Assembly: GCF_023028345.1 (NCBI RefSeq)
Contig: NZ_CP095487.1
Location: forward strand, 992,001-1,056,000
DNA length: 64,000 bases
Direction of reading: 5' to 3'
Source: Halorientalis marina
GTDB taxonomy: Archaea > Halobacteriota > Halobacteria > Halobacteriales > Haloarculaceae
In this document: piece by piece, positions 9,556 to 54,475 of the stretch
Layout: each line of letters begins with the position of its first letter
How positions within the stretch are numbered: the first letter of the stretch is position 1
Program-made: the position numbers and the translations under genes
The notes under the pieces: generated by a model
Database searches by the model: none
Told to the model about the DNA's origin: nothing
Seen by the model: the letters and a program-made list of their open reading frames with translations, nothing else

Positions 9556-9648
9556 ACTTTTTATCGCTCGGGTGCGCGGAGCGCACCACTCGCGATAAAA
9601 ACTTGGGGAAAAAGGCCGGACGCTCGGGCCGCGGGCCCGAGCGTCCGG
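9556..9648 (+). repeat. structured palindromic element, copy 1
   Basis: It begins 6 nt after the stop of the citramalate synthase. First module: outer arms TTTTTATCGC (9558-9567) and GCGATAAAAA (9592-9601) enclose GGTGCGC-GGA-GCGCACC (9571-9587). Linker AAAAACTTGGGGAAAAA covers 9597-9613. Second module: a perfect 15-bp stem with a 3-nt GCG loop (arms 9616-9630 and 9634-9648). Copies 2 (18450-18581) and 3 (54338-54475, minus strand) share this order and key words, including the exact linker in copy 3. The T-run after the stop codon could end transcription. Confidence 0.75.
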
Positions 9649-9678
9649 TACGACGTGCTGGCACCGACCGCCACCGCA

Positions 9679-9773
9679 CAGCCACCGCCACCGCTCGGCC
9701 ACCGCCACCGCTCGGCCACCGCCACCGCTCAGCCACCGCCACCGCTCGGCCACCGCCACTGCTCAGCCACCGC
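9679..9773 (+). repeat. 17-bp tandem repeat (minisatellite)
   Basis: About 5.6 copies of a 17-bp unit (CAGCCACCGCCACCGCT or CGGCCACCGCCACCGCT) run head to tail: 9679-9695, 9696-9712, 9713-9729, 9730-9746, 9747-9763, partial to 9773. Units differ only at the second base (A/G), plus one T in unit 5. 17 is not a multiple of three, and the array lies between genes, so it is not coding. It separates palindromic element 1 from coaD. Confidence 0.85.
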
Positions 9774-9835
9774 ACCACCACCGTCTCGTCTCCCCACGGT
9801 AACCGTTGAAGTAGCAGCCGACCGAATGGCCGTAC

Positions 9836-10306
9836 GTGACTGGAACACGCGTCGCGGTCGCGGGCACCTTCGGGCCACTCCACGACGGCCACCGTCGGCT
9901 CCTGCGGACGGCCCTGAAGTACGCCGACGGTGGCCTCGTCGTGGGCGTGACGTCGGACGCGTTCGCACGGGACGACCGGACCCGCGAGGTCCCGCCCGTC
10001 GAGTCGCGGCGGGCGGCGGTCGCGGCGGCGATAGACGACATCGACGAGTGGGGGCGGACGGTCGAAATCCGGGAACTCCGGGACGAACTGGGGATCGTGA
10101 CCCTGGAGGCGGGGATCGACGCGCTCGTGATCTCGCCGGAGACGGCCGCCGAACTCCCGGCGGTCAACGACCGGCGCCGCGAACGGGGCTTCGAACCGGT
10201 CGAGGGCATCGTCGCGCCGTACGTCCTCGCGGCGGACGGTGAGCGGATCTCCTCGACGCGGATCGCCCGCGGCGAGATCGACGAACACGGGCGGGTGCTG
10301 GACTGA
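9836..10306 (+). CDS. coaD: phosphopantetheine adenylyltransferase, archaeal type
   Basis: A 156-residue nucleotidyltransferase that adenylates 4'-phosphopantetheine to dephospho-CoA in CoA synthesis. The nucleotide-binding motif is GTFGPLHDGHRR (residues ~10-21) and the second conserved motif is ISSTRI near the C-terminus, as in cytidylyltransferase-like enzymes. The length and MTGTRVAVAGTFGPLHDGH start match the archaeal PPAT family (COG1019). The start is GTG 9836, just ahead of the first strand of the Rossmann-like fold. It is the only CoA gene seen here and has its own upstream region of about 60 bp after the tandem repeat. Confidence 0.9.
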   Translation: MTGTRVAVAGTFGPLHDGHRRLLRTALKYADGGLVVGVTSDAFARDDRTREVPPVESRRAAVAAAIDDIDEWGRTVEIRELRDELGIVTLEAGIDALVISPETAAELPAVNDRRRERGFEPVEGIVAPYVLAADGERISSTRIARGEIDEHGRVLD

Positions 10307-10369
10307 GGCGAGCGCTTCGGCTGTCGCGTTCACTGCTCGCACGACCCTGCTGGCTCGGTGAGCGAAGGC

Positions 10370-10807
10370 TCAGGTTCCTTCGATGTCGAACTCCTCGGGG
10401 GAGCGGCCGGCCTCGTCGAGGACTTCGTCGGAGACGAGGATGGGGCAGTCGACGCGGAGCGCGAGGGCGACGCCGTCGGAGGGGCGGGCGTCGAAGACGA
10501 GGTCCTTGCGTTCGCCGCCGTGGTACTGTTCGGCGTCGAGTTTGGCGTAGAAGGTGCCGTCGGCGAGGTCGTCGACGCGGACGCGGTCGATGGCGCCGCC
10601 GAACTCGGCGATCATCTCCACGAACAGGTCGTGTGTCAGCGGCCGCTCGAAGGGCTCGCCCTCGACCGCGAGTTGCATGGATTGGGCCTGGTCGCTGCTG
10701 ACGAAAATCGGGAGGAGTTCGTCGCGGGCGCGCAGCACGACGACGGGGGCCCCGGACCCCTCGTCGCCGACGCCGACGCCGACCCCTTCAACGGTCGCCT
10801 CGTGCAT
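10370..10807 (-). CDS. bifunctional-nuclease (BFN, DUF151) domain protein
   Basis: A 145-residue protein with the BFN/DUF151 fold: APVVVLRARDELLPIFV, a central segment with FERPLTHDLFVEM, then the hallmark KDLVFDARPSDGVALALR. A plant homologue has been reported to have RNase and DNase activity; the role in archaea is unproven. The ATG at 10807 (MHEATVEG) gives the family's usual compact length; a longer in-frame extension reads as low-complexity sequence and is rejected. It converges on coaD with a 63-bp gap and diverges from the next gene. Confidence 0.88.
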   Translation of the reverse strand: MHEATVEGVGVGVGDEGSGAPVVVLRARDELLPIFVSSDQAQSMQLAVEGEPFERPLTHDLFVEMIAEFGGAIDRVRVDDLADGTFYAKLDAEQYHGGERKDLVFDARPSDGVALALRVDCPILVSDEVLDEAGRSPEEFDIEGT

Positions 10808-10925
10808 ACGTGACGGTACGGCGGGGAGGTATGAAAAGATACCCCGGGACGACCGCCGGTCCGGCCATGCCCACCCGCCGGCCACACGCCGCCGGACACA
10901 AACCCCCGGCGCCCCAAGCCGGCCC

Positions 10926-11207
10926 GTGAGCGAGTACGTCGTCGCGATCAAACCCTCCGCACGCCGCCGGTCACCCGCCGCCGGCGAGTGGGTCAACCGC
11001 GAGGGACCGCGCCGTCGGTTCGACTCGAAGGCCCTCGCCCGCGAGTGGGCGCGCCGGCACAGCGGCCACGGCTACCGGCTCTGGGTCCAGGACGCCCCGC
11101 CCCACGACGACACCGGCGTCGACGGCTACCTCGTCGGGGCCGACCGCCCGACGGTCGGCGGGGCCGGCGACTCGGCGGGCGAACAGGCCCCCTTCGAGCG
11201 CTTCTGA
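10926..11207 (+). CDS. conserved haloarchaeal hypothetical protein (93 aa)
   Basis: A basic-N-terminal, 93-residue protein starting GTG 10926 (VSEYVVAIKPSARRRS), with no membrane segment. The body has DSKALAREWARRHSGHGYRLWVQDAP, which looks like a helix with Arg/His-rich surfaces followed by a beta strand, and an acidic C-terminus. Codon usage is typical of real genes here. I do not recognise a named domain. A nucleic-acid contact is conceivable from the basic helix, but this is speculation. A 10-bp inverted repeat follows the stop codon. Confidence 0.65.
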   Translation: MSEYVVAIKPSARRRSPAAGEWVNREGPRRRFDSKALAREWARRHSGHGYRLWVQDAPPHDDTGVDGYLVGADRPTVGGAGDSAGEQAPFERF

Positions 11208-11213
11208 GCGGCA

Positions 11214-11249
11214 GCGGCCGACGGCCTCTCCCGGGCCCTCGTCGGCCGC
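11214..11249 (+). terminator. terminator-like inverted repeat
   Basis: GCGGCCGACG (11214-11223) pairs perfectly with CGTCGGCCGC (11240-11249) across a 16-nt loop, seven bases after the stop at 11207. It is followed by CTTTTTTATC, but that T-run is also the promoter of the next gene, so the terminator role is uncertain. Confidence 0.4.
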
Positions 11250-11260
11250 GGGCGGGGGAG

Positions 11261-11270
11261 CTTTTTTATC
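11261..11270 (+). promoter_or_regulatory. TATA box of the enoyl-CoA hydratase-like gene
   Basis: CTTTTTTATC is centred about 28 nt before the ATG at 11293, so transcription should start at or just before the start codon (leaderless). Confidence 0.6.
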
Positions 11271-11292
11271 GGTCTCCGCTGGTGTCACAGGT

Positions 11293-12090
11293 ATGCGCGA
11301 GATCGGAGACGGCAACGCACTGCTCGACATCGAGGGCCACCGCGCGGACGTGTGGCTGAACCGGCCGGACAAGCGCAACGCGATGAACCAGCAGGTGATC
11401 GCCGACCTGCACGCCGCAATCGACGAGGTGGCCGCCGTCCGCGAGGACGAGGACATCCGGGCGATGACCCTGCTCGGGAAGGGGCCGGTGTTCTGCGCCG
11501 GGATGGACCTGAACCTGATGCACGAGGCCGACGCGGCGGTCCGCGACGAGTTCAGCGCCGAGGCGAACACGCTCATTGACGACATCGAGGCCCTCCCCGT
11601 CCCGACGGTCGCCGGGGTGAAGGCGTCGGCCATCGCGGGCGCCTTCGAGCTCACGCTGCCCGCTGACTTCCGTGTCATCGACGCCGAGGCGACCTACGGA
11701 CTGCGGGAGACGAAACTCGGCATCTTCCCCTTCTTCGGGTCGACCCAGCGGCTGCCGCGGATGATCGGCCTCTCCCGGGCGAAGGACCTCGTGCTGCGGA
11801 GCGATCTCGTCGACCCCGAGGAGGCCGAACGGATGGGACTGGTCCACGAGGTCGTCGAACCGGGGACCGTCGACGAGGAGGCGAAGTCACTGGCCGACGA
11901 ACTCGCCACTCGCGCGCCGCTCGGGATGGCGCGGGCGAAGGAGTGTCTGCACGCCGCCTTCGACACTCCCGTCACCGAGGGCGCCGAACTGGAAGACGAA
12001 CTGGTCTCGGAGATCTGGGACACCCACGACCGCCGGGAGGGGTTCGCGGCCGCGCTGGAGGACCGGGAGCCGGAGTTCGAGCGGGAGTAG
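11293..12090 (+). CDS. enoyl-CoA hydratase/isomerase family protein
   Basis: A 265-residue crotonase-fold protein. The first oxyanion-hole region is FCAGMDLNLM (~71-80). The second carries AIAGAFELTLPADFRV, in which the usual GGG run before the catalytic Glu is changed to AGAF while the Glu (FEL) remains. The second family Glu is present in RETKLGIFPFFG. Retention of both acids suggests a hydratase-type reaction, but the altered loop makes the substrate unpredictable. The ATG at 11293 fits the TATA box. Its TAG stop touches the stop of the P-type ATPase gene on the other strand (TAGCTA). Confidence 0.88.
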   Translation: MREIGDGNALLDIEGHRADVWLNRPDKRNAMNQQVIADLHAAIDEVAAVREDEDIRAMTLLGKGPVFCAGMDLNLMHEADAAVRDEFSAEANTLIDDIEALPVPTVAGVKASAIAGAFELTLPADFRVIDAEATYGLRETKLGIFPFFGSTQRLPRMIGLSRAKDLVLRSDLVDPEEAERMGLVHEVVEPGTVDEEAKSLADELATRAPLGMARAKECLHAAFDTPVTEGAELEDELVSEIWDTHDRREGFAAALEDREPEFERE

Positions 12091-14391
12091 CTACTCGCGG
12101 AAGTCCTCGGGTGTCAGCCGGCCGAGTCGCATCGCGTTGCCGGTAATCGCGGTGGTCATCCCCACGTCGCCGATGAGGACGGCGTGGATGACGCCCACCA
12201 GTCCGAAGGGGATTCCGAGCGCGAGCAGGGCCTTCACGCCGAGCGAGCCCCAGATGTTCTGCCGGATGACCGAGTTGCCGGTCCGCGAGAGGGAGGCGAG
12301 GTAGGGGAGCCGCGAGAGGTCGTCGCCGAGTAGCGCGACGTCCGCGGTCTCGATGGCGGTGTCGGAGCCGGCCGCGCCCATCGCGACGCCCACGTCGGCG
12401 GTCGCCAGCGCGGGCGCGTCGTTGATGCCGTCCCCGACCATCGCGACCGCGCCGTACTCGGCCTGGAGTTCCTCGACGGCGTCGACCTTGTCCTCGGGGA
12501 GCAGGCCGGCCCGGAAGTCGTCGACGCCGACCTCCGCGGCGACGGCGCGGGCGGTGCCCTCGTTGTCGCCGGTCAGCATCACGACCGTCAGCCCGCGCTC
12601 CTGCAGGGCGGCGACCGTCCGCGCGGCCTCGGGGCGGATGGTGTCCGCGACGGCGACGAGCCCCTCGATCTCGTCTTCCCGGCCGACGAGGATCACGGTC
12701 TTGCCCTCGCTCTGGAGTCGCGGGATGGTATCCTCCACGAGGTCGAGACAGCCCTCGCGGTCACAGAGCTGGCGGGCGTCTTCGGCCAGTCCGCCGGCGC
12801 TCGTCGTGAAGTGGACGTGGTTCAGGTCGAACCCCAGTTCCTCGAAGAGGTCCGGTTTCCCGGCGTAGTGAGTCGCGCCGCCGAGGTCCGCGCGGACGCC
12901 CTGCCCGGTCAGGCTCTCGAAGCCGCCGACCTCGCGGTCGCCGTCCACGCCGCTCTCGGCGGCGTGGCCGACGATGGCCTCGGCGATTGGGTGTTCGCTC
13001 CGGGCTTCGAGGCCGCGAGCACACCGGAGCACGTCGGTCTCGGTGTTGCCGTTGAGCGGGACCACGTCGGTCACGCTGAGTTCGCCGGTCGTCAGCGTCC
13101 CGGTCTTGTCGACGGCGACGGCGTCGACCTCGCCCATGCGTTCGAGGTGGTCGCCGCCCTTGATGAGGACGCCGTTGCGCGCGGCGCTCGTGATGCCCGA
13201 GACGACGGTGACGGGCGTCGAGATGACGAAGGCACACGGGCAGGCGATGACGAGGAAGGTGATGCCGTTGACGAGCCACTCGATGGCCGGGAAGCCGAGC
13301 GCGAGCGGCGGGACCGTCGCGGTGAGGATCGCGACGGCGACGACGATTGGCGTGTAGTAGCCGGCGAAGCGGTCGACGAACTGCTCGCGTTTCGTCTTGC
13401 GCTCCTGGGCGCCCTCGACGAGGTCGATGACCCGCGAGAGCGTCGAGTCGTCGGCCGCCGCCGTCACCGAGACTTCGAGGTAGCCGTTCTCGGCGATACT
13501 GCCCGCGTACACCTCGTCGTCGACGGTCTTGTCCACGGGGACGCTCTCGCCGGTGATCGGCGACTCGTCGACCGCGCTCTCGCCCTCGACGACCCGGCCG
13601 TCGAGCGGCACCTTCTCGCCGGGTTCGACGACGACCGTCTCGCCGACCGCCACGTCCGCGACTGGCATCTCGACGGTCTCCCCGTCGCGCCTGACCTGTG
13701 CCGTCTCGGGCGCGAGTTCGAGCAACTCCCCCAGCGAGTTCCGGGCGCGGTCGACGGCGTACCGCTCCAGCAACTCCGCGACGTTGAACAGCGCGGCGAG
13801 CGACGCGGCCTCGACGAGCAGGCGCTCGCTCGTGAACAGCGACAGGCCCGTCGCGCCGAGGATGGCGACGCTCATCAGGAAGTCGATATCGAGGCTCAGG
13901 TTCCGGGCCGAGCGGTAGCCGCCCCGGACGATGACTTCGCCGCCGGCGACGACCGCCGCCAGCATGATGGCGTCGGCGACGAACAGCGGGTTGCCGAAGG
14001 GTCGGCCAAGCAGCGCGTCGGCACCGGGCAGGAGGAAACGCACGCCGAGCGCGACCAGCAGGAGCACCGCGCTGGCGGCCGTCTTCACCGCCCGCGGCGT
14101 CCGCCAGACCGGGGTCGACGCGCCGACGGCGCCGCGATCGTCCGCGCCGCGCACGTCCGTCACCTCGTAGCCGGCCCGCTCGATGGCAGCCACGGCGTCC
14201 GCCCGCACGTCGCCGTTCCCGACGACCGTGAACTGTACCGTCCCCGTCGCCGGGCTGAACTCCGCGTCGTCGATCCCCTCGACGCCGGCGAGGGCGTTCT
14301 CGACTTTCCCGGCACAGGAGGGGCAGTCCATCTCCGGGACCTGCACCCGGAGCCGCTCGCCCGCTCCCGCCGCTTCGGTAGTCCCGCTCAT
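12091..14391 (-). CDS. P1B-type heavy-metal (Zn/Cd/Pb) translocating ATPase
   Basis: A 766-residue metal efflux ATPase. An N-terminal HMA domain (MDCPSCAGKVE, ~19-29) precedes the transmembrane core. Key residues: Cys384-Pro-Cys386 in the ion path, phosphorylated Asp428 in DKTGTLT, and MVGDGINDAPALA in the P domain. The last helices have Lys in SLGVKALL and Asp742 in GDVGM, the set I associate with the P1B-2 (zinc/cadmium/lead) subclass rather than the copper pumps. The nucleotide domain has an insert with His525/His527 and Cys543/Cys548 that could bind metal. A minus-strand TATA (ATTAATAAGG, ~14412-14420) suggests a leaderless mRNA. No metalloregulator is adjacent. Confidence 0.93.
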   Translation of the reverse strand: MSGTTEAAGAGERLRVQVPEMDCPSCAGKVENALAGVEGIDDAEFSPATGTVQFTVVGNGDVRADAVAAIERAGYEVTDVRGADDRGAVGASTPVWRTPRAVKTAASAVLLLVALGVRFLLPGADALLGRPFGNPLFVADAIMLAAVVAGGEVIVRGGYRSARNLSLDIDFLMSVAILGATGLSLFTSERLLVEAASLAALFNVAELLERYAVDRARNSLGELLELAPETAQVRRDGETVEMPVADVAVGETVVVEPGEKVPLDGRVVEGESAVDESPITGESVPVDKTVDDEVYAGSIAENGYLEVSVTAAADDSTLSRVIDLVEGAQERKTKREQFVDRFAGYYTPIVVAVAILTATVPPLALGFPAIEWLVNGITFLVIACPCAFVISTPVTVVSGITSAARNGVLIKGGDHLERMGEVDAVAVDKTGTLTTGELSVTDVVPLNGNTETDVLRCARGLEARSEHPIAEAIVGHAAESGVDGDREVGGFESLTGQGVRADLGGATHYAGKPDLFEELGFDLNHVHFTTSAGGLAEDARQLCDREGCLDLVEDTIPRLQSEGKTVILVGREDEIEGLVAVADTIRPEAARTVAALQERGLTVVMLTGDNEGTARAVAAEVGVDDFRAGLLPEDKVDAVEELQAEYGAVAMVGDGINDAPALATADVGVAMGAAGSDTAIETADVALLGDDLSRLPYLASLSRTGNSVIRQNIWGSLGVKALLALGIPFGLVGVIHAVLIGDVGMTTAITGNAMRLGRLTPEDFRE

Positions 14392-14540
14392 ATCCGGAGG
14401 TAGCTCACCTCTCCTTATTAATTCGACTGTTACGGATCACCCCTCTGATGGCAGAAGTTATTACTGAAACTGGTCTGGATTAGTAACGTCTGGGGCGGGG
14501 ACAACGCGACGTTTTTGACCGCGGGTCCCGAACGCCCGAT

Positions 14541-14786
14541 ATGGTCGAACAGGAGGCCGATGGCCGGACGTTGAACCGCAAGCGAGCGGCGTTAGCTGTC
14601 GCGCCGTTCCTGTTCATCGGTCTCGCGGACGTCGTACTCCTGCTCGGGTGGGGACTGGACGGCCTCTGGGGCTTCATGATCCTGCCGCCGATCCTCTTCG
14701 TCAGCGTGCTCGCCTGGATCGCGTTCCGGTCCGGGTTCGTCCACGAGCACGACACCGAGTACGACCCGGACGGCGACGTGGAGTGA
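14541..14786 (+). CDS. small two-helix membrane protein (81 aa)
   Basis: An 81-residue protein with two predicted membrane helices (about 20-37 and 43-65), separated by GLDGLWG, and acidic ends (HEHDTEYDPDGDVE). The ATG at 14541 lies about 30 nt after a CGACGTTTTTGAC promoter-like stretch. I recognise no family beyond similar small haloarchaeal membrane proteins. It diverges from the metal ATPase gene, so a role in metal handling is possible but unsupported. Confidence 0.7.
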   Translation: MVEQEADGRTLNRKRAALAVAPFLFIGLADVVLLLGWGLDGLWGFMILPPILFVSVLAWIAFRSGFVHEHDTEYDPDGDVE

Positions 14787-14815
14787 CCGGTTTCACCCGC
14801 GCCACCCAGTCGAAA

Positions 14816-15111
14816 CCGCCGCGACGGAGATTTGAACTACGCGGAGACGGTCGCTCGCTTCGCTCGCCGAAGAACGCCGAGGAGGCGATTTGAACCACGG
14901 TCGTTCCGCTTCGCTTCACTCCCTGATTCAAACGCCGTCGCCGCTCTGCCGACAGGACCGACTCGCGGTGCTCGTCGGTTTGCGTCGGCAGAAGCGCCGA
15001 GGAGGAGATTTGAACCGGAGGGAGACGGTCGGCCTCGCTCCGCTCGGCCGCTGCGACTTCCAGGGTTCAAATCTCGGCGGCGTTTCCACTCGCCGGGTGG
15101 CTCGTGGAAAA
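14816..15111 (-). repeat. array of tRNA-Ser 3'-end remnants, both orientations
   Basis: This 296-bp stretch has no gene. The tRNA-Ser 3' end seen at 15112 (plus-strand reading CGCCGAGGAGGAGATTTGAAC) recurs at 14995 (identical over 21 nt), 14875 (one change) and 14817 (three changes), spaced 117, 120 and 58 bp. Between them, opposite-orientation copies of the T-arm end occur (GGTTCAAATCTCGGCGGCG near 15064-15082; GATTCAAACGCCGTCGCCG near 14931-14949). Each unit therefore folds back on itself around a GC-rich centre. Likely origins are repeated integration/excision at the tRNA end or a small foldback repeat derived from the tRNA. Confidence 0.8.
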
Positions 15112-15196
15112 CGCCGAGGAGGAGATTTGAACTCCTGAGTCCGTGAGGACAGTTGCTCTCGAAGCAACCGCCTTGGCCAGGCTAGGCTACCTCGGC
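15112..15196 (-). tRNA. tRNA-Ser (anticodon CGA)
   Basis: Read on the minus strand, the acceptor stem GCCGAGG pairs with CCTCGGC and is followed by a G discriminator (15112). The anticodon stem-loop is GTTGC-TTCGAGA-GCAAC with anticodon CGA (codon UCG). A long variable arm (GTCC-TCAC-GGAC) marks it as class II, and the T arm is AGGAG-TTCAAAT-CTCCT. The length is 85 nt, no intron is seen, and CCA is not encoded. Degenerate copies of its 3' end lie immediately downstream. Confidence 0.95.
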
Positions 15197-15250
15197 TCAC
15201 ACGTTCCTACCGCGGGTTTCCGTTTGTACGTTTCGAAACGTGGCGCCGCG

Positions 15251-16027: not shown

Positions 16028-16130
16028 ACCCGTATCGAAGGACGGTTCCGGGAAAACGGCGGCGGTGGGACGGCGCTGTGGGCCGGGCGGATCGTCGGGA
16101 TACGGCGCGCAGGTGTGGGCGGCGTGGTCG

Positions 16131-17463: not shown

Positions 17464-17550
17464 TGCCGTCGTGAAACCGATAGAGCCGTGGGACCGACAC
17501 GCACGCTCCCGGCGCGAGTTTTTTACGGCTCCGGAGAGCTACGGACTCGT

Positions 17551-18453
17551 ATGAAGCTCTCGGTGGTGGTGCCGACGCTCAACGGGCGGGACCAGCTCGA
17601 GAGCTGTCTCGACGCCCTCGCGACACACGCGCCCGGCGCCGAGGTGATCGTGGTCAACGGGCCCTCCTCGGACGGGACGACCGGCATGGTCCAGGACCGC
17701 GACGACGTGGACGTGCTCGTCGAACTCGCGGACCGCCGGCTCAACGTCGCACGCAACGCCGGTATCGACCGCGCCAGCGGCGACGTCATCGCGCTGCTCG
17801 ACCACCGACTCACCGTCGAGTCGGGCTGGCTGGCGGCCCTCGCCGACGGCATCGCCGACGGCGACGCCGTCACCGGCCCCACTCACCAGGAACTCGAAGC
17901 CGGACTCACCACCGAGTCCGTCGAATCCAGGACCATCAAGGGCCGGACCGTCACGTACTTCGACGGCGGCAACGCGGCGTTCACTGCCGATCTGCTCGAC
18001 GAAATCGACGGCTTCGACGAGTATCTCCACACCGGCGGCGCGCGTGACGCTGCCCACCGGCTGGCCGCGCTCGACTACGAGGTCGCCTGGGAGGGCGGGA
18101 TGAGCGTTCGCCGGGAGTACAGCGCCGACGGCGGCCGCGCGGAACCCGACTGGCGCTGGAAGTACCGCTCGCTCGCCTACCGCCTCGCGAAGAACTACGG
18201 CGTTCGTCCGACCGTCCTCCGACGCCTCACCGGCCACAGCGTCCGCGACGCCGTGGGCGCGCTCAAGGACGTGGCGCGGGGCGACGCCGACCCCTCCAGC
18301 TGGTTCGGGAACGGACGGGAGGTACTCGCCGGGCTGGCGACCGGCCTCAAGGACGGAGCCGTCGCCCGCTACCGCGACCGTTCGCCGCGACGCAACCCCA
18401 ACGGCCGCTCGAAACGCGCCGACCGCGCGGTGGCGGTCTACGACTACCGCTAA
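17551..18453 (+). CDS. family 2 glycosyltransferase
   Basis: A 300-residue GT-A fold transferase. The N-terminus MKLSVVVPTLNGRDQLESCL is the nucleotide-sugar binding strand, AEVIVVNGPSSDGT follows, and NAGIDRASGDVIALLDHR contains the place where GT2 enzymes carry DxD (here LLDHR, only one Asp). FDEYLHTGGARDAAHRL is the acceptor-side region. No membrane helix is evident, so it is probably cytoplasmic or peripheral. The ATG at 17551 lies about 28 nt after GTTTTTTACGG. Its TAA stop codon is embedded in the first arm of palindromic element 2. The sugar and acceptor are unknown. Confidence 0.87.
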   Translation: MKLSVVVPTLNGRDQLESCLDALATHAPGAEVIVVNGPSSDGTTGMVQDRDDVDVLVELADRRLNVARNAGIDRASGDVIALLDHRLTVESGWLAALADGIADGDAVTGPTHQELEAGLTTESVESRTIKGRTVTYFDGGNAAFTADLLDEIDGFDEYLHTGGARDAAHRLAALDYEVAWEGGMSVRREYSADGGRAEPDWRWKYRSLAYRLAKNYGVRPTVLRRLTGHSVRDAVGALKDVARGDADPSSWFGNGREVLAGLATGLKDGAVARYRDRSPRRNPNGRSKRADRAVAVYDYR

Positions 18454-18587
18454 ATTTTTACTTCGAGGGGTGTCCTCGGCCCTGCGGGCCTGCGGGCACC
18501 CCTCTCGCAAAAATTTAGTATAAAAACTGCCGGGCGCGAGGCACTGCCTCGCGCCCGGTGAACCGGCGGCTTCGCCGCCGGATGCTC
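18450..18587 (+). repeat. structured palindromic element, copy 2
   Basis: Module 1: CTAAATTTTT (18450-18459, includes the glycosyltransferase stop) pairs with AAAAATTTAG (18509-18518); inside, GAGGGGTG (18465-18472) pairs with CACCCCTC (18497-18504), enclosing TCCTCG, a GCCC-TGC-GGGC hairpin and CTGCGGG. Linker: TATAAAAACT. Module 2: a perfect 13-bp stem, arms 18530-18542 and 18546-18558. Module 3: CCGGCGGC-TTC-GCCGCCGG (18563-18581), then GATGCTC. Copy 3 has the same three modules with different but still complementary arms. Confidence 0.8.
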
Positions 18588-18590
18588 AGT

Positions 18591-38060: not shown

Positions 38061-38061
38061 G

Positions 38062-45321: not shown

Positions 45322-45393
45322 TACTTCGGTCCCGTTCCCCCAGCGTCGGAATCGGCGCCAGGCTTTTTCAACGTCCGCGTCGCCGGTTCGAAT

Positions 45394-47300: not shown

Positions 47301-47358
47301 GCCCGGCTGTTGACGCCCCAGGAGTAAAACGCGTGCGATGCGGTCCCCGGCGGCGCGC

Positions 47359-48180: not shown

Positions 48181-48249
48181 GACATCGACTGTGGGGGCCC
48201 ACGGCAAAAAGCCGGGGCATTGATGACTCTGGGACGCCTACGCTCTGGT

Positions 48250-48408
48250 ATGCCAAAGACGCTCGAAGTGAAGTGTACGAGCGCCGACTGTGAACTCGAT
48301 ATGTTCGAGCTTCACTACACGTACGACATGCCGGACAGCGTGGGGGTGGCCGACTTCGACTGCCCGTACTGCGGCGAGGGGGACGGACTGGAAGAGATCG
48401 AGCTATGA
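48250..48408 (+). CDS. small zinc protein (52 aa)
   Basis: A 52-residue protein: MPKTLEVKCTSADCELDMF at the start and FDCPYCGEGDGLEEIEL at the end, giving a Cx4C plus CxxC zinc site around a beta hairpin. I recall this as a conserved haloarchaeal small protein (DUF7559-type). The ATG is at 48250, and its TGA overlaps the Hsp20 ATG (ATGA at 48405-48408), so the two are translationally coupled. Confidence 0.8.
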   Translation: MPKTLEVKCTSADCELDMFELHYTYDMPDSVGVADFDCPYCGEGDGLEEIEL

Positions 48409-48926
48409 TCCGGGAACTCGGCCGGACGCTGACCGACACCGTGATGGAGACCGTCGGCCGCGCGGCCAGCCGCGTCCAGGAGCGGCGCCCGCTCCCGGTC
48501 GACCTGCTCGAAAGCGACGAGGCCTACCTCGCGGTGTTCGACGCGCCCGGCGCGACCAGCAGCGACGTCCAGGTCCGCTTCGACGAGAACCGCGTCGAGG
48601 TCCGACTCGACCGCTTCCGCGACTTCTACGACGGCTTCGAGATGCGCTTGCCCGGCCGCGGCCTCTCGCTCGACGGCCACGTCACCCTCCCGCCGGACGC
48701 CAAGGTCGACGCCCGCGAGGCGGCCGCGACGCTCAAACGGAACGGTACGCTCCACGTCCGCGTCCCCAAAACCGAGGACGCGACCGCGTCCGTCGGCGAG
48801 GAGACGGTCGAGACCGACGTGGAATCCGACGACGCCGACGACCACGAAGCGGACGAGACTGAAGCCGAGGACGCCCACGACGATTCCGAAGCCGACGACG
48901 GCACCGACGAGACCGACGACGAGTAA
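48405..48926 (+). CDS. Hsp20 / alpha-crystallin family protein
   Basis: A 173-residue small heat-shock-like protein. The alpha-crystallin domain runs about 28-125: LPVDLLESDEAYLAVFDAPGA, VEVRLDRF, the conserved LPGRGLSLDGHVTLPPDAKVD-type region (start and end), and the C-terminal strand ATLKRNGTLHVRVPK, the LxxGVLxVxxPK equivalent. A ~50-residue Asp/Glu/Thr-rich tail follows, with no IxI motif, so oligomer assembly may differ. It overlaps the upstream zinc protein gene by 4 bp and its TAA touches the stop of the opposing FAD oxidoreductase gene. Confidence 0.87.
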   Translation: MIRELGRTLTDTVMETVGRAASRVQERRPLPVDLLESDEAYLAVFDAPGATSSDVQVRFDENRVEVRLDRFRDFYDGFEMRLPGRGLSLDGHVTLPPDAKVDAREAAATLKRNGTLHVRVPKTEDATASVGEETVETDVESDDADDHEADETEAEDAHDDSEADDGTDETDDE

Positions 48927-50114
48927 TCACTCGACGGTCATCCCTTCGACCACCGCGAACTCCTCGTCACCGTCGAACCGCGCCGGGTCGAACGCTCGCA
49001 GGACGTCGTCGCTCTCCTTCTCCCGCTCACCCGCTATCTCGTCGGCGACGCGCTCGCCCAGCGCCGGCGCGCGCATGAAGCCGTGGCCGTGCCAGCCGAC
49101 GGCGACGAACAGCCCGGGCGCTACCGCCCCGACGAGCGGGTCGCGGTCCGGCGTCGCCGTACAGAGGCCGGCCCACGAGTCGGTCACGTCCGTCGGCCCG
49201 TCGGCCGAAAGCGCCGCGTCGAGGCGCGCCAGCGCGTCGCTTCGGAAGTCCTCGTCTGCCGTCCGGTCCCAGTCGTCTGGGTCGGCGGCCCGCTCCTCCG
49301 TGCCGTCGCCGACGAGGAAACCCCCCGCCTTCGCCCGGCAGTAGAACCCCCGCGTCGCGTCGTACAGTGTCGGCGTCGTCTCGGCCGCGCTCGACGGCGC
49401 TGTCACGAGCGCCTGCACGCGGTACGGCTTGACCTGAATCGCGACGCCCGCGTCGGCCAGCACCGGCTTCGTGTGGGCGCCCGCCGCGACGAGGACGGCG
49501 TCGAACCGCTCGCGACCCGCTGGCGTCACGACCGTCGCGCCCGGTCCCGAATCGCCCCTCGCTGACTCCGTCCCTGCGGGCGTTGCGTCCACCGCGACCT
49601 CGGTTCCCGTCCGGAGAGTCGCGCCCGCGGCGCTGGCCCGCTCGGCGACGACCGCCGCGTACTCCGCGGGGTCGGCACAGAGCGCGTCCCGGGCGACGGC
49701 GGCCACGGCCACGTCGTCCGTTTCGAGGCCGGGAAACTCGGCGGCGAGCGCGTCCGGGTCGAGAAGAGTCACGTCACGGTCGTTGTCCCGCATCCGCGGG
49801 ACCTGCTTACGGATGGCCCGCTCCCGCTTCTCGTCACCCTCACGAGCGAGCCAGACGTATGGCCGGTCGGTAACCGAGAAGCGCGTCTCGGCCGCGAGGT
49901 CGCGGAACCGTTCGAGCGCACGCGCGGCGACGGCGGCGTCCAGCCGGTCGGCGAACGCGTCGTAACAGATGCCGGCGGCGCGGCCGGTGCTCCCGGCACC
50001 GACCGCGTCGCGCTCGAACAGCGTCACGTCGTGGCCGTCCGCCGCGAGGGCGGCCGCGGCCGTCACGCCGACCGCGCCGGCGCCGACGACCCCGACGCGT
50101 TTCACGTCTCCCAT
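48927..50114 (-). CDS. FAD-dependent oxidoreductase (DAO family)
   Basis: A 395-residue flavoprotein with the N-terminal dinucleotide-binding motif VGVVGAGAVGVTAAAALAADG and acidic end TLFERD, GSTGRAAGICY (flavin contact), and the C-terminal DAO motif VGAVAPGLFVAVGWHGHGFMRAPALGE. It resembles glycine/sarcosine oxidase-type or D-amino-acid dehydrogenases; the substrate cannot be told. The start ATG is 50114 (MGDVKRVGVV). Its stop codon directly abuts the Hsp20 stop on the other strand. Confidence 0.88.
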   Translation of the reverse strand: MGDVKRVGVVGAGAVGVTAAAALAADGHDVTLFERDAVGAGSTGRAAGICYDAFADRLDAAVAARALERFRDLAAETRFSVTDRPYVWLAREGDEKRERAIRKQVPRMRDNDRDVTLLDPDALAAEFPGLETDDVAVAAVARDALCADPAEYAAVVAERASAAGATLRTGTEVAVDATPAGTESARGDSGPGATVVTPAGRERFDAVLVAAGAHTKPVLADAGVAIQVKPYRVQALVTAPSSAAETTPTLYDATRGFYCRAKAGGFLVGDGTEERAADPDDWDRTADEDFRSDALARLDAALSADGPTDVTDSWAGLCTATPDRDPLVGAVAPGLFVAVGWHGHGFMRAPALGERVADEIAGEREKESDDVLRAFDPARFDGDEEFAVVEGMTVE

Positions 50115-50153
50115 CGCTGTCGATTACGGCCCGGGCGGGGAAACGCTATCGGC

Positions 50154-50402
50154 TCACTCCCGGTCGGGTTCGAGTTCCGGCTCGGGGACCAGTTCCCCCT
50201 CGGCCCGCCGTTCCCGCAGTTCTTCGATCAGCGAGTCGAAGTCCGACCGCTTCTCGCCGAACGTCGCGCCGGCGAGCGCGCCGACGCCGGCGCCGGTACT
50301 CGCCGCGCTCCGGCTGAACAGTCCCCCCAGCGCCGCGCCGACCGCCGCGCCGATTGCCGCGTACTTCGCCCGATTCACAGCGCGTTTCAGTCGTTTTCGC
50401 AT
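50154..50402 (-). CDS. small glycine-zipper membrane-associated protein (82 aa)
   Basis: An 82-residue protein: basic N-terminus (MRKRLKRAVNRAK), a Gly/Ala zipper segment (AAIGAAVGAALGGLFSR...GAGVGALAGATFG, about 15-47) and a charged helix with EPELEPDRE end. Glycine zippers often insert in or pack against membranes. GTTTTATACG on the minus strand at ~50424-50433 places transcription near 50404, so ATG 50402 is preferred to the ATG at 50420. Function unknown. Confidence 0.7.
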   Translation of the reverse strand: MRKRLKRAVNRAKYAAIGAAVGAALGGLFSRSAASTGAGVGALAGATFGEKRSDFDSLIEELRERRAEGELVPEPELEPDRE

Positions 50403-50497
50403 ACCATTGTTCTCGGTCATCGAACGTATAAAACTACTCGCCGCCGTCGGGATTGCGACGCCGGGCTGACCGTCCGGGACCGCCCGCACCCGGACGG

Positions 50498-51097
50498 CTA
50501 CGTCGGGAGGTCGGCGTCGGGGTCGACCACGCGGTCCACTTCGGGCGGCATCTCCCAGTCGGTCGCCAGTTCGAGCAACTGGACGAGGATGCGGGCGGTC
50601 GCCCCCCAGACGGTGTAGCCGTCGACGCGGAAGAAGTGCAGGCGGATGTCGCCGTAGTGGGGGTGGTCCCGGCGCTCGGACTCGTAGTTGTCGAGGTCGG
50701 TCAGGTCGTCGACGGCGAGGACGGCGATCTCGGCCACCTCGCGCTCGTCGGGCGTGTACTCCCGGTCGGGAATCCGTGCCAGGAACGGCCGGACGGAGTA
50801 GCTCGTGATCGTCCGGATGTCGTCGAGGCGGCCGACGATCTCGGCCTCGTCGGGGTCGAGGCCGATCTCCTCGTTGGCCTCCCGGAGCGCCGTCGCCGTC
50901 CGGTCGGCGTCGCTCGGCTCGCGGCCGCCGCCGGGGAAGCTCATCTGCCCCGGGTGTTCGCCGAGGTGGTCCGCACGCTTGGTGAAAAGCAGGTGGTAGC
51001 CGTCGTCGCGGGTGACGACCGGCGCGAGGACCGCGGCCTCCCGCTCCTCGTCGGTCACCGACGCGGCGCCGAACGCGGCCACCCGCTCGAAGTCCAT
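50498..51097 (-). CDS. Nudix hydrolase, CoA pyrophosphatase-like
   Basis: A 199-residue Nudix protein. SFPGGGREPSDADR and TALREANEEIGL form the Nudix box, with the RExxEEIG helix intact. The HLGEHPGQMSFPGG lead-in is typical of the CoA/NUDT7-like branch (LxxHxGQxxFPGG), suggesting hydrolysis of CoA or related diphosphates. The start ATG is 51097. It lies on the minus strand with the next gene upstream 52 bp away, possibly one transcript. Confidence 0.9.
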   Translation of the reverse strand: MDFERVAAFGAASVTDEEREAAVLAPVVTRDDGYHLLFTKRADHLGEHPGQMSFPGGGREPSDADRTATALREANEEIGLDPDEAEIVGRLDDIRTITSYSVRPFLARIPDREYTPDEREVAEIAVLAVDDLTDLDNYESERRDHPHYGDIRLHFFRVDGYTVWGATARILVQLLELATDWEMPPEVDRVVDPDADLPT

Positions 51098-51149
51098 ACC
51101 CCGACAGAGGGGCTCCGTGTTCTTAATTCGTCCGGGGTCGACCGACGGC

Positions 51150-51659
51150 TCACGAGAGCGCGTCGTCCAGCCGGTCCCGCGCCGTCGACAGCTCTACCGG
51201 CGCCGCCCAGGCCTCCAGTTCGTAGCTCACGTCCAGCAACGCCGTCATCCGCTCGACGTCGCCGGCTGCGACCGCCCGTGCCGTATCCGCCCGAAACCGC
51301 TCCTCGGCGGCTTCCCCGACCCGCTCGCGGTCGACGTGGCGTCCACTGACGTCCATGATGTGCGGGAGGTCAGTGGCGTGCTCGGGCAGTTCCGGGAACG
51401 CGACCGGACCCGGTACGAGCAGCGACTCCTCGTCGGTTTGCTCGCCGTTGCCCTCGCTTTCGCCGCCTTCGGTCGGCCGCTCGACCGCGACGAGGTAGTA
51501 CTCCGCGACGGCGGCGTCGATGGCGTCGGCGAAGTCCGCCGGCTCGCGGTCCGCGCCGTCGCGGAAGGCGAGTTCGACGAGCGCCTCCCCGAGTTCGGCC
51601 CGCGTCAGCCCCCCGAAGAGGTCGACGATGCCGGCCAGTTCGTCCCCGCTGGGGTCCAT
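51150..51659 (-). CDS. conserved haloarchaeal hypothetical protein (169 aa)
   Basis: A 169-residue soluble, acidic and mostly helical protein. The N-terminal part DELAGIVDLFGGLTRAELGEALVELAFRD looks like a small helical bundle; DAIDAAVAEYYLVAVE and FPELPEHATDLPHIMDVS lie in the middle; the end (RMTALLDVSYELEAW...STARDRLDDAL) is helical. I recall similar haloarchaeal proteins (DUF7109-type) but no function. The start ATG is 51659. It diverges from the GpgS-like gene. Confidence 0.75.
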   Translation of the reverse strand: MDPSGDELAGIVDLFGGLTRAELGEALVELAFRDGADREPADFADAIDAAVAEYYLVAVERPTEGGESEGNGEQTDEESLLVPGPVAFPELPEHATDLPHIMDVSGRHVDRERVGEAAEERFRADTARAVAAGDVERMTALLDVSYELEAWAAPVELSTARDRLDDALS

Positions 51660-51763
51660 GGCGGAATCGGCGGTCCGCTCGCCCTTGAGGTTTCGGGGAC
51701 TCCTCTGCCGCCGCCGGCGCTCGAACGGGGAGCTTTTTCCGCCCCAGTCCTTACGTCGGGTCG

Positions 51764-52861
51764 ATGGAATACGTCCAGGAGCGCGTGGCGACGCTCCATG
51801 CCTTCTCGGATCGGGTCCCGGACGCGCCGACCGACAGCGCGGCGGTCGTCGTCCCGCTCACCGAGCGGGAACACGCCAGCCTCGCCGCCGAACGGGTGTT
51901 CACGACGCTCGAACGGATCGACCCCGCGCGGGTCGTCGTCGCGCTTCGGGCCAGCCCCGACCGCGTCTCGACGGTCGCTCGCTGGCTCGACTCCTTCGAG
52001 CTCTCGCCCGACGTGCTGTGGTGTAACGCCCCCGAGGTGCGCGAGGAACTCGGCGCGGCCGGGCTGAACGGTCCCGCCGGGAAGGGCCGGGACGTGTGGC
52101 TCGCGCTCGGCGTCGCCGCCAGCGAGGAGTACGTCGTCGTCCACGACGCCGACACGAAGACCTACTCGCGGGCCCACGTCCCGCGCCTGCTTTTCCCACT
52201 CGCGCAGGGCTACGACTTCTCGAAGGGCTACTACGCCCGCGTCGAGAACGACCGTCTCTACGGCCGCCTGTTCCGGCTGTTCTACACGCCCCTGGTCCGG
52301 GCGCTCGACGAGCGCCACGACGAGCCGGTCGTCGATTACCTCGCCGCGTTCCGCTACGCGCTGGCCGGGGAGTTCGCCGCCACGAGCGACCTCGTCCGGC
52401 GCCTGCGCGCCCAGCGGGGCTGGGGCCTGGAGGTCGGGACGCTCGGCGACGCGTTCACCCATGCCGGGTTCGACGGGTCCGCCCAGGTCGACCTCGGCCA
52501 GCACGAACACGACCACCGCGCCGTTTCCGGCCCGCAGGGGCTCGGCGATATGTGTAGCGAGGTCGCGACAGCGCTCTTCCAGGTCGTCGACGACGCCGGC
52601 CTCTCGCTGGACTACGACGCGGTCCGCGAGCGCTACCGAGAGACGGCCGACCGCCTCGTTCGCCAGTACGGGACCGATGCGGCGTTCAACGGCCTCGATT
52701 TCGACGGGGCTGGCGAGCGCGACCAGGTAGCGACCTACGCCGACGCCATCGAACCGCCGGGCGAGGACACGCGCCTGCCGGCCTGGCGCGACACGACCCT
52801 CGACCCCGAAACCGTGGTGGCCGCTTCGGACCGCGCACTCGACGCGGCCGTCGACCGCTGA
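51764..52861 (+). CDS. GT81-like glycosyltransferase (glucosyl-3-phosphoglycerate synthase-like)
   Basis: A 365-residue GT-A enzyme. It resembles the GpgS/MpgS group: a UDP-sugar-binding N-terminal region (AAVVVPLTEREHASLAAERVF), the metal site VVVHDADTKTYSRAHV (DAD = DxD), FSKGYYARVENDRLYGRL, and YTPLVRALDERHDEPV. Such enzymes make glucosyl- or mannosyl-3-phosphoglycerate, precursors of the osmolytes glucosylglycerate/mannosylglycerate. No phosphatase gene is adjacent, so the product is uncertain. The start ATG is 51764, about 30 nt after AGCTTTTTCC. Confidence 0.82.
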   Translation: MEYVQERVATLHAFSDRVPDAPTDSAAVVVPLTEREHASLAAERVFTTLERIDPARVVVALRASPDRVSTVARWLDSFELSPDVLWCNAPEVREELGAAGLNGPAGKGRDVWLALGVAASEEYVVVHDADTKTYSRAHVPRLLFPLAQGYDFSKGYYARVENDRLYGRLFRLFYTPLVRALDERHDEPVVDYLAAFRYALAGEFAATSDLVRRLRAQRGWGLEVGTLGDAFTHAGFDGSAQVDLGQHEHDHRAVSGPQGLGDMCSEVATALFQVVDDAGLSLDYDAVRERYRETADRLVRQYGTDAAFNGLDFDGAGERDQVATYADAIEPPGEDTRLPAWRDTTLDPETVVAASDRALDAAVDR

Positions 52862-52917
52862 CCCGTTCCCCCGCCGGTGGCACGGAGTTTTTAACGGTTC
52901 CCCTGTTACGGCCGCGT

Positions 52918-53088
52918 ATGGAATCCGTCCGCAAGGGGCTTCGATCCGGGGCGATAGAGAAGGACACCTACGAACGCCTCAACTGCGCCGAGTGTGGGGA
53001 GGAACTCGACACGAAGAACGACCCCGACGAGATCGGGACTGTCCGGGTCTGTCCAGGCTGTGGCCGCGAGTGGAAGAAGGTGGGGTAG
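52918..53088 (+). CDS. zinc-finger micro-protein, HVO_0758-like (56 aa)
   Basis: A 56-residue protein too short for many gene finders. It has two Cys pairs, CAECGEEL (~23-30) and CPGCGREW (~45-52), around a beta hairpin, with MESVRKGLRSGAIEKDTYE as N-terminal helix. This pattern (VRKGLR...EKDTY...TKNDPDE...VRVCPxCG.EWK) matches what I remember of the Haloferax HVO_0758 family of zinc micro-proteins. Start ATG 52918 follows GTTTTTAACGG (about 52887-52897) by roughly 25-30 nt. Its TAG abuts the opposing aldo/keto reductase stop (TAGCTA). Confidence 0.88.
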   Translation: MESVRKGLRSGAIEKDTYERLNCAECGEELDTKNDPDEIGTVRVCPGCGREWKKVG

Positions 53089-54177
53089 CTACTCGAAGAC
53101 GGCGTCGAAGGCGCTGGCCCCCAGCGGCTCGAAGGTCCCCGCGTCCACGTTCTCCGCCACGTGTGTCGGTGTCCCCATCCCGACCAGCGACGCCGTCACC
53201 CCTGGCGCACTCCGCGCGAAGTTGATCGCCCGCTGCGCACGGGTCTCCCCGTCCAGTTTCGCCTCCACCTCGCCCGGTATCTCGGCCGCGAGCCGGCCCT
53301 GCATGATGGAGGCGCTCGTGAACACGTCCAGTCCGGCGTCGTTCGCGAACCAGAGCGCGCTCTGTGGCCCCTCCGCCCCCTCGTGGCTCTCGACGGTGAA
53401 CGCGTCCGCCATGAAGACGTTGAACGGCAACTGGACCGCGCGAAAGCCCGTCGCCTCACGCCCGGCAGCGTCCGCGGCCGCCCGCGCCCGCCTGACGATT
53501 TCCGGCAGCGAGAGGTAGCTATCGTCGGCCTCGGGCACCCGAAACGACTCCCACGACGCGACCCCGTAGTGACGAACGTCCCCCGCCGCGACGCGCTTCT
53601 CCAGCCGCTCGAACGTCGCTTCGAGCTGGTCGTACACCTCGTCCCGCGACCGCTCTTCGAGTTGCGTTTCGGGATTGTGGACGTAGTAGCAGTCGATCGT
53701 GTCCAGGCCGAGGTTCTCCAGCGAGCGGTCCACCTGGTCGTCGATGTAGTCCGGCGCGATGCAGTGTTGCCCGTGCACGAGGTCGTCGGCGTCGACGATG
53801 CCGGTGTCGAGATACTCTTCGCGGACGTACTGTCCCGGATCGTCGGGCCGGTCGCCGTCGAACGGGACGAACCCGCCTTTCGTCGCGACCATGACCGCCT
53901 CGCGGTCTGCGTCGGCATCCTCGATGGCCGCGCCGACGACGCGCTCGCTGCGCTGACAGCGGTAGTTGATGGCGGTGTCGACGACGTTGACCCCCGACTC
54001 GATGGCCTCGACGATGGCCTCGTGGTAGGCCTCGTCGGCCGCGTCGGTCGGGTCGCCGAGGTACGTGCCGAGGCCGATGCTCGATACGACGCAGTCGCCG
54101 AAACTCCGGAAGTAGGTGCGGGCGAACCGCTCGTGGTGGCGGTCCCGGTAGTTCCAGGTCGCCTCGCGTGTAGCCAT
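53089..54177 (-). CDS. aldo/keto reductase family protein
   Basis: A 362-residue (alpha/beta)8 oxidoreductase. GLGTYLGDPTDAAD, NVVDTAINYRCQRSERVVG (catalytic Asp and Tyr), VMVATKGGFVP (catalytic Lys) and DCYYVHNPETQ (catalytic His) are present, completing the Asp-Tyr-Lys-His tetrad. It is longer than average, with an insertion after the Lys (DDPGQYVREEYLDTG...DDLVHGQHCIAP). NADP-dependent by family; substrate unknown. ATG 54177 follows CTTTATCG on the minus strand by about 25 nt, so it is leaderless. Confidence 0.9.
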   Translation of the reverse strand: MATREATWNYRDRHHERFARTYFRSFGDCVVSSIGLGTYLGDPTDAADEAYHEAIVEAIESGVNVVDTAINYRCQRSERVVGAAIEDADADREAVMVATKGGFVPFDGDRPDDPGQYVREEYLDTGIVDADDLVHGQHCIAPDYIDDQVDRSLENLGLDTIDCYYVHNPETQLEERSRDEVYDQLEATFERLEKRVAAGDVRHYGVASWESFRVPEADDSYLSLPEIVRRARAAADAAGREATGFRAVQLPFNVFMADAFTVESHEGAEGPQSALWFANDAGLDVFTSASIMQGRLAAEIPGEVEAKLDGETRAQRAINFARSAPGVTASLVGMGTPTHVAENVDAGTFEPLGASAFDAVFE

Positions 54178-54337
54178 GCGAGGGCGTTGGGTCGGCGGCG
54201 ATAAAGGCGGGGCGGTTGCGGTGGCGAGCCCGGAGCGGGAGTGGTCACGCGGCGGTGGCAGTCGCGGAGTGGACGGCCGGGAGGGGTAGGGCAGGGCTGC
54301 TGTCGTTGAGTGGAGATAGGGGAGCGGCTACGAGCAT

Positions 54338-54475
54338 CCGCGCGCCGGAGGCGCGCGGTTCGCGGAACTCGCGCGGGGCGCGAGTTCCGTAGTTTTTCCC
54401 CAAGTTTTTGGAAACGGGGGTGCCCGCAGCGGCGCGAAGCGCCACGAGGACACCCCCGTTTGTAAAAAGTGGGTG
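54338..54475 (-). repeat. structured palindromic element, copy 3
   Basis: Oriented downstream of the DHH gene. Module 1: an 11-bp stem, plus-strand arms 54412-54422 and 54451-54461 (AAACGGGGGTG / CACCCCCGTTT), enclosing (minus strand) TCCTCG, a GGCGC-TTC-GCGCC hairpin and CTGCGGG. Linker 54393-54409 is TTTTTCCCCAAGTTTTT on the plus strand, the exact complement of copy 1. Module 2: a 12-bp stem, arms 54363-54374 and 54378-54389. Module 3: CCGCGCGCC-GGA-GGCGCGCGG (54338-54358), then (minus strand) GATGCTC as in copy 2. It fills most of the 54178-54477 gap. Confidence 0.82.

Follow-up and report, generated by a model that had tools for sequence, protein, structure and literature searches.

Palindromic repeats at gene ends of Halorientalis and related haloarchaea: a candidate mobile terminator

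Short repeats with palindromes have been described in both bacteria and haloarchaea. The repetitive extragenic palindromic sequences (REPs) of E. coli are read as single-stranded DNA (ssDNA) in a strand-specific manner, and have a mismatch in the stem and a fixed tag beside the hairpin (PMC8266576). The PATEs of Haloquadratum walsbyi have near-terminal palindromes related to those of IS605-type transposons, and the small mobile repeats (SMRs) of the same species have terminal inverted repeats, the SMR-A elements (about 110 bp) being inserted into PATEs and IS605-type elements (PMC3119063). With a T5C insert, 95% of Haloferax volcanii transcripts were terminated (PMC7237163). In a survey of TnpA-Y1 proteins, IS200 subclass 1.1 was the only one seen in Archaea (PMC6006769). 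Here we describe a family of structured palindromic elements with three copies in a stretch of 64,000 nucleotides of the Halorientalis marina genome (NZ_CP095487.1, positions 992,001 to 1,056,000; the whole stretch is called the window). Rather probably, this is a non-autonomous, REP-like family of gene-end palindromic repeats carrying its own archaeal T-tract terminator, that is, a mobile terminator.

Structure of the elements

Counting from the upstream gene, an element consists of a leader with a T5 run, hairpin 1, a linker with two A-runs, hairpin 2 and, often, hairpin 3. The latter, where present, is set between GTGAAC and ATGCTC (GTGAACCG-hairpin 3-CGGATGCTC). The leader begins a few nucleotides past a stop codon or a tRNA end and has variants such as CCACTTTTT, CCACCTTTTT, CCATCTTTTT and CTAAATTTTT. 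The first half of the linker is the complement of the leader, and both switch jointly between subtypes. Thus, the leader CCACTTTTT pairs with the linker AAAAAC(T/G)TGGGG, and the other combinations are CCACCTTTTT with AAAAACGTGGGCG, CCATCTTTTT with AAAAACATGGGTG, CGACCTTTTT with AAAAACGTCGATG, GCACGTTTTT with AAAAACGTGCGCG, CTAAATTTTT with AAAAATTTAGTA, and GTACCTTTTTT with AAAAAATCTACGCT. A few pairs fit badly (GAACC with CGCTCATG, one case of CCATC with GCGGGGAC). For 57 distinct leader/spacer pairs the mean leader-linker helix was 3.56, compared to 2.40 after shuffling, and for the 27 pairs whose leader does not end with CCAC it was 3.11 compared to 1.38; none of 2000 shuffles was as high in either set. 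Since the leader and the linker change together, the T-run belongs to the repeat, and therefore the element brings a candidate terminator and does not merely settle in one. The preliminary description of the window had suggested terminators or small mobile palindromes settling in terminators; the elements indeed seem terminator-like and mobile, but the T-run is their own.

Covariation within hairpin 3 was analysed for its 32-nt class, represented by 23 distinct sequences from a word search in 58 genomes (that of the window and 57 relatives). The fraction of paired cells was 93.7%, compared to 72.8% in shuffled sets, and the covariation was 0.455 compared to 0.141, neither value being reached in 500 shuffles; the covariation was lost on sliding the partner. 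The three outer pairs are set by the search pattern and hence are uninformative, and two measures counting pair types were no higher than in the shuffles of these 23 sequences. The strong covariation of the hairpin supports the initial observation that the arms differ in sequence yet stay complementary. The arms do co-vary; however, their differences reflect to a good extent the exchange of whole hairpins at a fixed gene end, and not only step-wise compensatory mutation.

All three copies in the window are present as first described, except that the boundary of copy 3 needed a small shift. Copy 1 follows leuA (8006-9550, plus strand; HMGL-like and LeuA_dimer domains). Its leader CCACTTTTT (9554-9562) has the T5 run at 9558-9562, seven nucleotides past the stop codon TAA (9548-9550), and is followed by hairpin 1 (ATCGCTCGGGTGCGC..GCGCACCACTCGCGAT, 9563-9596), flanked by T5 and A5 and seen in both RNA and DNA folds, the linker AAAAACTTGGGGAAAAA (9597-9613, linker-pattern match G000:C1:1001597-1001613) and hairpin 2 (9616-9648) with the tail GGTACGAC and without hairpin 3, all on the plus strand. 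Copy 2, also on the plus strand, belongs to a family-2 glycosyltransferase-like gene (17551-18453, plus strand), whose stop codon TAA (18451-18453) lies within the first arm: it is included in the leader CTAAATTTTT (subtype C, 18450-18459), with the T5 run (18455-18459) one nucleotide off. Then come hairpin 1 (18460-18508), the linker AAAAATTTAGTATAAAAA (18509-18526), whose first ten bases are the exact complement of the leader, hairpin 2 (18530-18558), identified by folding, and GTGAACCG-hairpin 3-CGGATGCTC (18558-18587, hairpin-3 word match G000:C1:1010558-1010587). Copy 3 is on the minus strand past a gene with DHH/DHHA1 domains (54478-55650, minus strand; stop codon TGA 54480-54478). Its leader is again CCACTTTTT (54464-54472), the T5 run (54468-54464) being nine nucleotides past the stop codon. 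Hairpin 1 (54410-54463) contains the same TCCTCG/CTGCGGG internal loop as hairpin 1 of copy 2, the linker AAAAACTTGGGGAAAAA (54393-54409, linker-pattern match G000:C1:1046393-1046409) is identical to that of copy 1, as noted before, and hairpin 2 (54363-54389) was found by folding. The last part (54332-54358) is formed by hairpin 3 (54338-54358) and the tail ATGCTC (54332-54337), the preceding tag being GCGAACCG instead of GTGAACCG. The end of copy 3 had been set at 54338; GATGCTC is there but spans 54338-54332, so that all of it bar the first base was left outside, and therefore the copy should extend to 54332. Two more details were adjusted. The first module is a hairpin as described, but also takes in the leader (CCAC-T5 or CTAAA-T5), which pairs with the first half of the linker, and the distance of about 6 nt to the stop codon holds only roughly (1, 7 and 9 nt). 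Folds of both strands of each copy were far more stable than those of 200 dinucleotide shuffles, with z from -6.7 to -10.6 for RNA and from -8.0 to -9.9 for DNA, and in none of the 12 folds was the real value matched by a shuffle.

Several features adjoin the elements. The leuA gene carrying copy 1 is preceded by the Rfam leuA-Halobacteria RNA (RF03001, 7926-7978, 70.6 bits), and copy 1 itself is directly followed by a 17-bp unit (ACCGCCACCGCTCGGCC) repeated in tandem at 9650-9785, seen as six 51-nt windows in 17-nt steps. In eight loci of the collection (L010, L014, L035, L052, L057, L060, L131, L166) module 1 contains additional hairpin modules with recurring joints, CTGCTCACGG..CCGTTCGCATGGT and CTCACACCAG..CTGGTTTGCTCACGAG..CTCGTGAACCTCG. 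The stretches past the elements are C-rich and G-poor: in 50 non-coding tails the fractions of C and G are 0.394 and 0.266, with C exceeding G in 38 of 50, compared to 0.305 and 0.296, and 57 of 110, in control gaps.

Position, distribution and turnover

The elements were gathered by the linker or the tail, never by gene, and therefore placement at genes was not selected for. Prior to counting, we dropped 40 loci with GC content below 55%, which were chance matches of the linker pattern, and 12 pairs of A-runs without an upstream T-run. Out of 130 collected elements, the GC filter removed seven, leaving 123, and short flanks removed two more, leaving 121 for the analysis of direct repeats. The exact patterns favour the commonest subtype and intact tails, and degenerate copies are under-counted. 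Genes were called by the open reading frame script of this analysis.

The feature nearest to the leader is a coding sequence on the same strand in 94 of the 123 elements, a tRNA on the same strand in 14, and an opposite-strand feature in 13; two elements have none. Thus, on the side of the T-run, the feature reads towards the element in 108 of 123 cases, which supports the earlier observation that the elements are placed just 3' of genes; this placement is not random. The gap to the end of the same-strand feature is within 28 nt in 91 of the 108 (80 at 3-11 nt, eight at 1 nt, three at 16-28 nt) and 46-400 nt in the remaining 17. Of these elements, 52 have a convergent and 49 a co-directional downstream neighbour, and for seven it was not seen; the direction of the downstream gene does not matter for placement. 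T-runs at such positions are otherwise rare: in a 400 kb sample, T4 or longer occurred inside 25 nt of only 16 of 350 stop codons, and five of these 16 were full elements. Twenty of 26 listed host proteins were scanned. They are ordinary, scattered cellular proteins, including thiolase, thermosome, LeuA, DHH, glutamyl-tRNA reductase, sulfite/nitrite reductase, PhoU, an eRF1-domain protein, Hjc, MscS, an ABC ATPase, a TrmB-like regulator, a DUF5806 protein and others, with no integrases among them.

The family is much larger than the three copies reported initially, and the possibility that few or no other copies exist in the genome is not what was found. The linker AAAAACTTGGGGAAAAA with at most two mismatches had 17 matches in the genome of the window (13 forward, four reverse), and the word GTGAACCG-N5-35-CGGATGCTC had 16, all of them at the end of an element; the reversed patterns, used as controls, produced none. 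A stricter script yielded 30 distinct elements, and the first copy of L014, which fell under the GC limit of the script and was counted in separately, makes 31 elements located in this genome, which is listed with 7% contamination. An evenly spaced 400 kb sample contained seven elements, five of them directly past a called stop codon; extrapolation from this sample gives about 80 elements per 4.75 Mb genome. The hairpin-3 word was found in 18 of the 58 genomes (none for the control): besides the genome of the window, these are the other seven of its genus, nine more from the family and one from a different family. In the order, 53 of 392 genomes, mostly of the same family, have an exact match to the linker of the commonest subtype, with no control matches among those listed. 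One member of the genus, G003, has 10 hairpin-3 words, yet lacks this exact linker. Among the matches listed, carriers belong to Halorientalis, Haloarcula, Halomicroarcula, Halapricum, Halorhabdus, Halovenus, Haloglomus, Halosimplex, Halorussus, Halococcus and Salinigranum; chance matches in bacteria occur as well. In one relative, three successive linker matches spaced by about 160 nt (G010:C1:701638-701971) likely form a tandem array of elements.

Searches in databases did not link the family to described elements. None of the three copies matched any of 4227 Rfam families at the gathering score, and ten element loci had no Rfam match up to E 0.5. A distant-mode search of a plasmid collection with copy 3 only gave no match, and the seven IMG/VR contigs hit by one linker pattern (0.30-0.55 GC) all lacked the flanking anatomy. 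No description of a repeat family of such design was found in the literature searched.

Comparison of related genomes shows that, at one and the same gene end, an element may be present or absent, belong to another subtype, occur in tandem or have whole hairpins replaced. Among eight Halorientalis genomes, the gene end of copy 3 has an element in six and lacks it in G002 and G003. The leuA end (copy 1) has it in five, of subtype A in three (one degenerate) and of subtype C in two (one degenerate), with a possible remnant in G002. The gene end of copy 2 has it in two, as subtype C in the genome of the window and as subtype B with extra hairpins in G006. In pairs of loci with flanks identical at 91-97%, both arms of hairpin 1 are replaced while the leader and the linker are kept (L106/L175, L090/L181, L086/L098), the inner part is altered and hairpins are added (L131/L180), or a whole additional element stands between the stop codon and the orthologous element (L134 compared to L085). 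The number of leader units also varies (L119, L128, L135). In 13 pairs with at most 8 differences in 40 upstream positions, some of which are tRNA ends and may be paralogous, the outer stems are identical in two and differ at 4-14 of 22 positions in 11. Some outer stems reappear at other genes and in other species. Resemblance of outer stems to non-orthologous copies within their own genome exceeds that expected from label shuffling (26.7 of 138, compared to 9.5; maximum 22.7, none of 2000 as high).

Four of 121 elements lie between direct repeats no shorter than 13 nt, with about 0.1 expected from mismatched pairs. The end of the gene or tRNA recurs beyond the element as an exact 30 bp repeat of the end of a convergent gene in L033, a 17 bp exact repeat inside a longer diverged one in L110, and repeats of tRNA ends in L062 (13 bp) and L118 (14 bp; this is a common T-arm word of tRNAs and may be unrelated); a diverged repeat is seen in L067, at a gene like that of L033. 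Outside the T-run and the tail, inverted matches in the flanks of the 121 elements were at the control level only. In the tRNA-Pro region of Salinigranum salinum (L179, approximately 5294-5450) an apparent partial tRNA 3' end is situated between two element copies, a layout resembling a joint duplication of the element and the tRNA end.

Strand bias and possible modes of action

In unique hairpins 2 and 3, tandem 2x2 mismatches on the top strand are TC/TC in 109 cases and GA/GA in two, and triloops are TNC in 98, GNA in nine and other in 54. In hairpin 1 (unique) the numbers are 21 TC/TC and no GA/GA among the six types listed, and 48 TNC, 20 GNA and 36 other triloops. TC/TC and TNC on the top strand are GA/GA and GNA on the bottom strand. 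Both tandem GA mismatches and GNA loops have exceptional stability, particularly in DNA. In the background hairpins of these loci (262,680 nt) there is no bias (28 TC/TC and 24 GA/GA, 32 TNC and 31 GNA). With RNA parameters the bottom strand gives the better fold in 105 of 123 elements (the top strand in 17), and with DNA parameters in 106 of 123. Hairpins 2 and 3 thus look built for the bottom strand, and an RNA of the upstream gene would lack this seemingly optimised strand. Tuning of these hairpins to convergent genes was considered and rejected: the bottom-strand bias is alike at convergent and co-directional sites (means of 4.40 kcal/mol, n=49, and 4.84 kcal/mol, n=47; p 0.48). This independence from the orientation of the downstream gene argues for a feature of the element itself and against a convergent-gene terminator. 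Another type of hairpin, approximately GTGAGTGACCGCAGGGAACGAACGG, occurs just past hairpin 2 or the tail in L009, L010, L026, L125 and L160; it has GA/GA mismatches on the top strand, opposite to the hairpins of the family.

The elements may act as follows. The leader T-run, a few nucleotides past the stop codon or the tRNA end, would stop the upstream transcript, as suggested by its position and by the T5C insert in Haloferax; in that case the hairpins would be mostly missing from the mRNA of the host gene. On the other strand, the T-runs of the linker would stop transcripts coming from the other side, so that hairpin 1 has T-runs on both sides. The recurrence of arms, the exchange of subtypes and the presence of tandem copies and duplicated ends suggest that sequence is copied or recombined between loci, and the elements may spread within genomes in this way at the conserved leader and linker. 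With less certainty, hairpins 2 and 3 with the tags GTGAAC and GATGCTC could be read as folded bottom-strand ssDNA by a putative enzyme, on the model of REP hairpins read by TnpA-REP. The fuller version of this scheme, an archaeal REP-like self-spreading repeat specialised to sites behind stop codons and tRNA ends, read by an enzyme as bottom-strand ssDNA, domesticated as a terminator and swapped between genes and species, is a tentative possibility; recognition would go through the tandem GA pairs and GNA loops.

Other explanations account for parts of these data. The elements might be vertically inherited bidirectional terminators or insulators, in which the T-run ends the upstream gene, hairpins 2 and 3 in the bottom-strand RNA, with U-runs behind them, end antisense or convergent transcripts, and the arms change by compensatory mutation and gene conversion between copies, without transposition. 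We consider this unlikely, if worth serious attention. The order of bottom-strand hairpins and then T-runs fits it, as do the greater stability of the bottom strand in hairpins 2 and 3 with RNA parameters too (104 of 122), the excess of bottom-type over top-type wobbles (18 to 7), the orientation set by the upstream gene, and the arms kept at some orthologous sites. However, the bottom-strand bias does not differ between convergent and co-directional sites, though only the former need such a terminator, the conserved unpaired tags GTGAAC and GATGCTC would have no role, and the subtype changes, absences, tandem extra copy and duplicated gene ends require rearrangement of DNA. A purely selfish REP- or MITE-like repeat without any role in termination, found past stop codons only since selection has removed other insertions, would explain the strand-specific mismatched hairpins with flanking tags, the tandem copies and the patchy distribution, but it is improbable: purging alone predicts both orientations and variable distances, not 108 of 123 elements on the same strand and 80 of these 108 at 3-11 nt, and a T5 run beside the stop codon would terminate transcription by the rules in the cited work on haloarchaea (PMC7237163).

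Stable folds, strong covariation and a position right past stop codons would also be expected of a structured RNA in the 3' untranslated region of the upstream mRNA, transcribed as the top strand and serving as a stabiliser or 3'-end protector. This is still less credible, as the T-run precedes all hairpins, so that most transcripts should stop earlier, the bottom strand has the greater stability with RNA parameters (105 of 123, the top strand in 17), and tRNA genes carry elements as well (14 of 123). The five loci with a recurring gene or tRNA 3' end (L033, L110, L062, L118, L067) could be taken for remnants of integrative elements that enter such ends via attachment sites, the hairpin block being their conserved end. 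Repeats of at least 13 nt at only four of 121 elements make this explanation very hard to believe, and the 20 scanned host proteins are ordinary cellular ones without integrases, although integrase genes near the elements were not searched for.

Several points weigh against the mobile terminator itself. Termination at the leader T-run is inferred from its position and from the T5C insert in Haloferax. The strand bias of hairpin 1 is much weaker, the bottom strand being more stable in 71 of 118 (DNA parameters). The tight spacing to the stop codon needs either a targeting rule or strong purging. No mobilising gene and no RAYT was identified; the genome of the window has one match to Y1_Tnp (Y1 transposase), and inspection by eye of 800 nt around it revealed no similar hairpins. 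No flanking duplication of at least 13 nt is present around 117 of 121 elements, and therefore target-site duplication is not the rule. L115 and L150 (93% identical flanks) retain hairpin 1, and the outer stems of L175/L146 and L135/L119 have no differences in 22 positions. Finally, the hairpin swaps could have arisen by gene conversion or ordinary recombination, with no transposition involved.

If the mobile terminator is real, the terminators of core genes (leuA, thermosome, aRF1-like, glutamyl-tRNA reductase, tRNAs) ride on a mobile palindromic repeat, and the end of a transcript can be exchanged like a cassette. The family would then be a natural replicated experiment on the requirements of an archaeal terminator, with a strand-specific structural code of tandem GA pairs and GNA loops. 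It would also be a REP-like system in Archaea, where the survey saw no TnpA of the RAYT type (PMC6006769).

Comparison with known systems

With the bacterial REP, BIME and REPIN sequences (TnpA-REP, RAYT) the family shares short multi-copy intergenic palindromes, a tag beside the hairpin and a composite layout (PMC8266576, PMC3733652). The strand-specific stem mismatch, with the 109 TC/TC and two GA/GA cases in unique hairpins 2 and 3, resembles the E. coli group of REPs. However, the tag of REPs and REPINs is GTAG or CGTC, whereas hairpin 3 is preceded by GTGAAC and followed by GATGCTC, the other joints having been read by eye only. Also unlike REPs, the units contain one to three hairpins or more, and the elements have their own T-run, an archaeal host, and fixed position and orientation past stop codons. 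By the tag, the haloarchaeal elements are not REPs, and the E. coli REPs may serve as the nearest working model.

Like PATEs and SMRs of H. walsbyi, the elements are haloarchaeal, short, non-coding and present in many copies (PMC3119063), this comparison being by description. PATEs are set apart by their palindromes related to those of IS605-type transposons, and SMRs by their terminal inverted repeats and the insertion of SMR-A elements into PATEs and IS605-type elements; SMRs are further defined by a lack of target duplication. As in archaeal T-tract terminators, a T-run on the coding strand lies shortly 3' of the gene, in the 108 same-strand cases of 123, 91 of them within 28 nt. In Haloferax the T stretch alone sufficed, whereas here T5 opens a repeat whose linker is complementary to it (PMC7237163). 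The host genes scanned are scattered cellular genes and not cassettes, unlike those of integron attC sites. Like the elements, attC sites keep their structure despite sequence variation and lie 3' of genes; they are folded from the bottom strand. With exchange, loss and duplication between related species at the same gene ends, the elements give the impression of a novel kind of mobile terminator.

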